The notes below the pieces were generated by a model that saw nothing but the letters and a program-made list of their open reading frames with translations, was not told the origin of the DNA and made no database searches. From Runella sp. CRIBMP (GTDB taxonomy: Bacteria > Bacteroidota > Bacteroidia > Cytophagales > Spirosomataceae), in the NCBI RefSeq assembly GCF_009905605.1, contig NZ_JAAAKZ010000012.1, positions 1-64,000 of the forward strand: DNA of 64,000 bases, in the 5' to 3' direction. How positions within the stretch are numbered: position 1 is the stretch's first letter; every line of letters starts with the position of its first letter. The translations under genes and the position numbers were made by a program. Positions 58,611 through 60,583 of the stretch are shown here, in pieces.

Positions 58611-58857
58611 AAATAGTGTAAAAAACCCAGCAAAATATGAGCCGTAAAACAAAAATCATAAAGTTTTTCAGAGTAACCCTTGGAATTTTCAGGCAATTTT
58701 ATCCATATTTGCAATGGAATTAAATCGCTAGACGTTAAAGAGAATAAACAAACTCGGTCTAATCGTACACTTTAGCTGGAACTAAATATTAAATTAGTCT
58801 TTATTTTAGTATACTATATATATATATTAAATAAATTTTTACCTAAGTCTGATTTTG
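58611..58857. other. AT-rich intergenic stretch
   Basis: No gene or clear structure between the divergent rpsF promoter and the promoter element at 58858. The part around 58815-58835 is an alternating TA run. Confidence 0.5.
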
Positions 58858-58865
58858 TAGTTTTG
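58858..58865 (+). promoter_or_regulatory. Promoter element of the structured RNA upstream of metY
   Basis: TAGTTTTG matches TAnnTTTG; the -33 region is weak. It would start a transcript near 58872, just before the first helix of the structured RNA. Confidence 0.5.
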
Positions 58866-58871
58866 TTGTTA

Positions 58872-58980
58872 AAGGTTTTCAGTTAGATGTCAATTTGGCG
58901 GCCAATGCGGCACATGACGCTGCCAAATACTGAAAATGCGGGGATACCGTCGCGCAAATTTGCGCGACGGTACTTTTACA
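58872..58980 (+). ncRNA. Candidate structured leader RNA or small RNA upstream of metY
   Basis: After a TAGTTTTG promoter, the sequence folds into nested helices: P1 TTTTCAGT (58876-58883) with ACTGAAAA (58929-58936), and P2 TTTGGCGGC (58894-58902) with GCTGCCAAA (58919-58927), 9 pairs including one G-U. GTCA (58889-58892) in the P1-P2 joint can pair with TGAC (58915-58918) in the P2 loop, as a pseudoknot. Then comes the perfect 28-bp palindrome at 58945-58972 and CTTTT, a terminator. This is the layout of an aptamer followed by an expression platform, or of a 105-base small RNA. It is 320 bp upstream of metY, for which I see no other promoter. I match it to no known riboswitch class. Confidence 0.5.
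58945..58972 (+). terminator. Zero-loop perfect palindrome, terminator-like
   Basis: TACCGTCGCGCAAA is followed at once by its exact complement TTTGCGCGACGGTA, then CTTTTACA. A GC-rich stem plus T-run suits intrinsic termination of the structured RNA. Confidence 0.7.

Positions 58981-60583
<1,603 letters not shown>

Follow-up and report, generated by a model that had tools for sequence, protein, structure and literature searches.

A structured RNA element upstream of metY in Runella derives from the 3' end of a lost yceI gene and probably persists as a noncoding small RNA

What is the compact RNA element that precedes metY in Runella sp. CRIBMP, and does it control the gene? metY is a usual SAM-I-linked gene, and a preliminary description of the locus had read two nested helices and a downstream palindrome as an aptamer-plus-terminator layout (a new riboswitch class, an attenuator or a small RNA). 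Here, we revisit this locus by comparison with related genomes. The window is the whole analysed stretch of 64,000 nucleotides (contig NZ_JAAAKZ010000012.1, positions 1 to 64,000; genome G000 below), and all features given in its coordinates lie on the forward (+) strand.

Structure and origin of the element

The nested helices stand as originally described: P1 (58876-58883 with 58929-58936, 8 bp) encloses P2 (58893-58902 with 58919-58928, 9-10 bp), and together they span 58876-58936, with a conserved, single-stranded loop at 58884-58892. The perfect 28-base palindrome is likewise present (58945-58972), and forms a terminator-like hairpin with the T-run that follows it (58945-58977); the T-run itself (58974-58977) is real but short, having just four T, which is why a pattern scan for terminators does not call the hairpin. 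Folding of 58872-58980 yielded -46.4 kcal/mol (z = -5.3, 0 of 200 shuffles equally stable). P1+P2 folded alone are less extreme (z = -2.5 for the window sequence, and -2.3, -0.7 and -3.1 for those of three relatives, the weak fold of -0.7 being that of the G002 copy), and thus much of the excess in stability stems from the palindrome. Two further proposals did not survive comparison: the one pseudoknot that can be written (AUGU/ACAU) is broken in G010, and the promoter placed at 58858 (TAGTTTTG) is not conserved (it reads TCATTTTG in G010 and TCGTTTAG in G002, and is absent in G003). Downstream, metY (O-acetylhomoserine sulfhydrylase, 59297-60583; TIGR01326 at 652 bits, PF01053) does start 319 bp beyond the element. 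The core, as had been suspected, matches neither SAM, SAH nor any other Rfam family at the locus: nothing was recovered there at gathering score and nothing at the core for E up to 10, the weak matches at that threshold being far under gathering and situated elsewhere or on the opposite strand.

A DNA search recovered the element from 5 of the 13 genomes of the genus. In four species (G000, G010, G002 and G003) it lies upstream of metY, so that both the structured RNA with its terminator-like hairpin and its link to this gene proved to be conserved. The fifth copy (G006) lies at another site, overlapping an intact yceI gene at its 3' end; the protein of this gene carries PF04264 (1.3e-25). The window and the G006 yceI 3' end share 79% identity (92 of 117 columns) over a segment that spans codons, stop and hairpin; read in the yceI frame, the window letters from TTT CAG TTA to AAA TAC TGA give FQLDVNLAANAAHDAAKY and a stop, and the same tail in G006 translates as FRLDVNLVANAAHEAAKTGK and a stop. 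This continuous homology identifies the supposed aptamer as a yceI tail and the palindrome as the terminator-like hairpin of yceI. Hence, judged by its alignment, the structured element is a remnant yceI 3' end together with the hairpin inherited from that gene, and not a riboswitch aptamer. The remnant holds the final ~23 codons and the stop (58865-58933, aligned to G006 yceI), lacks a start codon, and now makes up the core of what would be a noncoding RNA. It corresponds to the C-terminal coding end of a member of the YceI-like family (PF04264), from which it differs in its missing start codon, its length of about 23 codons and a constraint that acts on nucleotides rather than on protein. 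No intact frame of this yceI was found in G000, as the locus offers no start codon and the rest of the genome holds only a paralogue at ~49% and weaker ones.

Close matches were confined to these five genomes of a single genus. A covariance model built from the five copies gave weak matches in another genus, four of which (G235, G238, G124 and G193) are yceI 3' ends, located independently with the protein; beyond the genus, this search returned nothing but yceI 3' ends and chance hairpin-like matches. One further weak match in another genus (L138:1501-1590) is a near-perfect inverted repeat of ~80 nt (GTTTTCAGTATT...AATACTGAAAAC), which may be a small mobile repeat. Scanning the GTDB genome collection for the exact pattern produced two Runella records only (L104 and L105), and the position of the L104 match agrees with the known G002 copy.

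The ancestral operon and its loss

The former context of the tail can be read from related genomes. In G123 (another genus) a SAM-I riboswitch (60 bits), yceI, a nifS-like cysteine desulfurase gene and metY stand in a row at one locus, and in G006 yceI and the nifS-like gene follow a SAM-I riboswitch (RF00162, 56.3 bits, 2.5e-10). The order in G004 is yceI, a hypothetical gene, nifS-like gene and metY, which G001 and G011 match by coordinates. The four species with the tail upstream of metY (G000, G010, G002 and G003) lack a close orthologue of either yceI or the nifS-like gene and carry just paralogues at ~50% or weaker, and G012, the closest relative of the window genome (99% identical MetY protein), lacks the whole relic segment. 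As judged from G006 and G123, SAM-I headed the ancestral operon at this locus; unlike in those genomes, a search with E up to 10 recovers no RF00162 match at the window locus, where the riboswitch was lost together with the yceI body. The early hunch of riboswitch control was therefore sound for the ancestral operon, which carried SAM-I, but not for this locus in the window lineage. At another place in the window genome one SAM-I riboswitch is still present, ahead of a metX-like gene (named by eye).

Upstream of the tail, parts of the operon's front are still recognisable. The block at 58680-58712, composed of TTGG (58680-58683), a 21-nt spacer and CATATTTGC (58704-58712), is conserved in G010, G002 and G003, and the same block precedes SAM-I and yceI in G006. 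It is close to the Bacteroidota promoter pattern (TTTG / TAnnTTTG; PMC7366714), from which we infer that it may act as a promoter, with a start near 58718. The adjoining 58713-58745 (GGAATTAAATC...AAAGAGAAT) would be the retained start of the former 5'UTR by homology to the G006 leader: promoter region included, the window and G006 leaders are 69-72% identical over 68-71 nt. The G006 block before SAM-I (TTGGAA...TTTGCACTGGAATTAAGTCAGTAGA) is thus still discernible at 58680-58745 and is conserved among the four relics, and the SAM-I that follows it in G006 is missing after 58745. An AT-rich block (58803-58838), kept in the four species, possibly represents what once immediately preceded the start codon of the lost yceI, although its low complexity makes homology there weak evidence. 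The simplest history compatible with these alignments is that of a SAM-I operon in which the promoter region, the yceI tail, the hairpin and metY were kept, while its riboswitch, the nifS-like gene and the body of yceI were lost.

Several observations bear on the wider setting of these genes. SAM-I riboswitches at L069:3954-4047 and L166:852-944 stand before yceI and a nifS-like cysteine desulfurase gene, an arrangement that suggests a role of YceI and the nifS-like desulfurase in SAM-responsive sulfur metabolism. In G001, G004, G007, G008 and G011 a SAM-I riboswitch lies directly upstream of a metY copy, whereas metY of the window lineage is without one. Near the G006 yceI there is an IS110-like transposase frame (L069:7302-7727, named by eye), and the sister genome G009 has no close orthologue of this yceI; the gene may have been acquired horizontally. 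In G003, a FAD-dependent oxidoreductase-like gene (L068:1228-2673, named by eye) is situated between rpsF and the relic promoter, which marks this intergenic region as a rearrangement spot.

Conservation and selection

A tail left behind by deletion could be a plain decaying remnant, functionless beyond perhaps insulating metY from upstream transcription. Such decay would fit the clear gene-relic origin, the disappearance of the segment from G012, the weak fold in G002 and the short T-run; we nonetheless regard it as rather unlikely, given how the locus has diverged. Over the 61 nt of the core (TTTTCAG...CTGAAAA), G010 departs from the window at 3 positions, G002 at 8 and G003 at 4 (87-95% identity), against differences of 33%, 38% and 54%, respectively, at metY 4-fold degenerate sites (binomial P of about 1.5e-7, 1.9e-5 and 2e-15; G006 was excluded from the rate calibration because its yceI may be horizontally acquired). 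G000, G010 and G003 show no difference at all over its leading 38 nt. When whole-metY divergence is taken as the yardstick, the excess conservation is clear for G003 only (P = 0.01 for the core and 0.0006 for its first 38 nt). Moreover, the conservation stops sharply near the P1 edge, with diverged flanks, which is again not what decay would leave.

Along the locus, conserved islands (promoter block, AT-rich block, core with hairpin, and metY leader) alternate with diverged spacers, a pattern that argues against recent transfer. Exchange by local recombination among the species might give a false impression of conservation, though the flanks are diverged. A recent mobile element was considered too and set aside (one strong copy per genome, at a common locus in four species).

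The helices differ in how they have changed. In the hairpin, 3 of 12 pairs were changed on both sides and 98% of the cells are paired, compensatory changes that also speak against mere decay. The covariation check on the nested helices came out unevenly: P2 shows mostly one-sided G-U exchanges and one double change, and no pair of P1 was changed on both sides, so that the core fold itself is left unproven by covariation. Nucleotide constraint on the core is well supported and constraint on the hairpin strongly so, while the P1/P2 fold is moderately supported.

Could this constraint be that of a protein? Variable core sites fall on yceI codon positions 1, 2 and 3 in the proportion 2/5/3, which is not coding-like and, along with the absence of an in-frame start, makes protein selection unlikely. 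A new small protein read in the +1 frame from an ATG at 58888 (MSIWRPMRHM...) might be invoked instead, as direct reading finds this ATG in all four relics; the peptide downstream of it is unconserved and runs into the hairpin, however, and in G006 the +1 frame meets a stop after four codons. Both this protein and a recoded YceI tail, for which the yceI frame supplies neither a start codon nor coding-like variation, appear highly improbable. Taken as a whole, the comparative data are probably best explained by a relic held under strong purifying selection.

The relation to metY

The position of the relic, on the same strand as metY and in conserved synteny with it, is what a cis-acting leader would show: transcripts from the old promoter would pass the hairpin (followed by merely four T) into metY, and the structured segment would tune expression as an attenuator or a new riboswitch. 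We consider this decidedly unlikely. By origin, the core is old yceI coding sequence and not a metY leader. A search of nascent-RNA folds for a conserved antiterminator or alternative pairing found none, P1/P2 staying the best fold throughout (the absence of an antiterminator rests on these nascent folds). The hairpin arm is altered in G010 while the first 38 nt of the core are unchanged, and G012 keeps a conserved metY leader of its own without the element. The riboswitch or attenuator first envisaged for metY is therefore not supported, its 'aptamer' being a yceI 3' end without Rfam match, antiterminator or the conserved promoter that had been placed at 58858. Specifically, an attenuator or expression-platform riboswitch was rejected as P1/P2 and the hairpin fold independently, and are not mutually exclusive, in four species, and a new riboswitch class was rejected as P1/P2 are nearly free of covariation and close matches occur in five genomes of a single genus.

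One possible contact with metY deserves mention. The conserved, mostly unpaired GUUAGAUGU (58882-58890; the fold leaves 58884-58890 unpaired) finds a match in ACATCTAAT at 59274-59282, which lies 14 nt ahead of the metY start; the pairing (-9.6 kcal/mol) is perfect in G003 and mismatched in G010. It could serve a cis-acting leader, yet 7.8% of random 65-nt windows pair equally well and it comes 5th among 56 starts; it hence is not significant and serves as a lead only. Trans complements of the loop, extended, were sought in four genomes: the exact match is at the locus alone, and the few sites with 2 mismatches are not shared between species.

The leader of metY itself (59160-59296), present also in G012, is strongly conserved in five genomes and has a possible hairpin, ACGAAACACT...AGTGCTTCGT, enclosing AAAGGCA...TGTCTTT (about 59178-59233). 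It is a better place than the relic to seek cis control of metY.

A putative 3'-end-derived small RNA

Among the three options raised at the outset, the small RNA is the one that has survived best, and we favour as the likeliest account of the locus that a relic of a SAM-I operon survives as a noncoding, 3'-end-derived small RNA. An ancestor of this Runella lineage had a SAM-I-controlled sulfur operon (SAM-I, yceI, nifS-like cysteine desulfurase gene, metY), of which only the promoter region, the tail of ~23 codons with its hairpin, and metY were kept; the riboswitch and the nifS-like gene disappeared, and so did yceI almost entirely. The tail is no longer translatable as YceI. Sequence comparison shows this origin, the ancestry of the operon, the losses, the conservation and the hairpin covariation, while transcription, its start and end, and regulatory action are predictions. 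Transcription would begin from the old promoter, near 58718 (TTGG, 21 nt, CATATTTG), and end at the inherited hairpin (58945-58977), near 58977; processing may occur near the P1 edge, where the conservation starts, so that the noncoding product would measure about 260 nt as a primary transcript and about 105 nt once processed. As the hairpin is followed by 4 T in the window, against 7 in G006, leaky read-through into metY may occur. An RNA of this kind would have outlasted the gene from whose 3' end it derives, with a presumed regulatory action. The narrower proposal, of a functional small RNA from the yceI 3' end that was kept after the deletions, is driven by the operon promoter and possibly acts on metY, we advance tentatively.

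Small RNAs derived from 3'UTRs are known in general from the full-text literature, in which (within its limited coverage, and thus as weak evidence of novelty) we found no described case of this RNA and no report from Runella. In Vibrio cholerae, OppZ and CarZ are freed from the 3' ends of operons whose own cistrons they act on (PMC7398697), and 3'UTR-derived and intra-operonic small RNAs occur in Bacteroides thetaiotaomicron (PMC7366714). The putative RNA resembles them in lying at the 3' end of an operon gene and closing in that gene's terminator-like hairpin, which is common to parent and relic while the core is conserved, and the yceI-tail RNA could act on metY much as OppZ does on a cistron of its own operon. 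Unlike in those cases, its parent frame is deleted and the tail alone is left.

The locus also carries a caution: what looks like a neat 'aptamer plus terminator' ahead of a methionine gene can be the last part of a gene that has disappeared. Small RNAs derived from the 3' ends of genes are known, but how such RNAs turn into genes in their own right is difficult to observe. Several stages of such a path appear to be represented among related species: a full operon (G123), an intact yceI with the same tail (G006), a constrained tail-only relic (G000, G010 and G003), a copy of lower stability (G002) and the loss of the whole element (G012).
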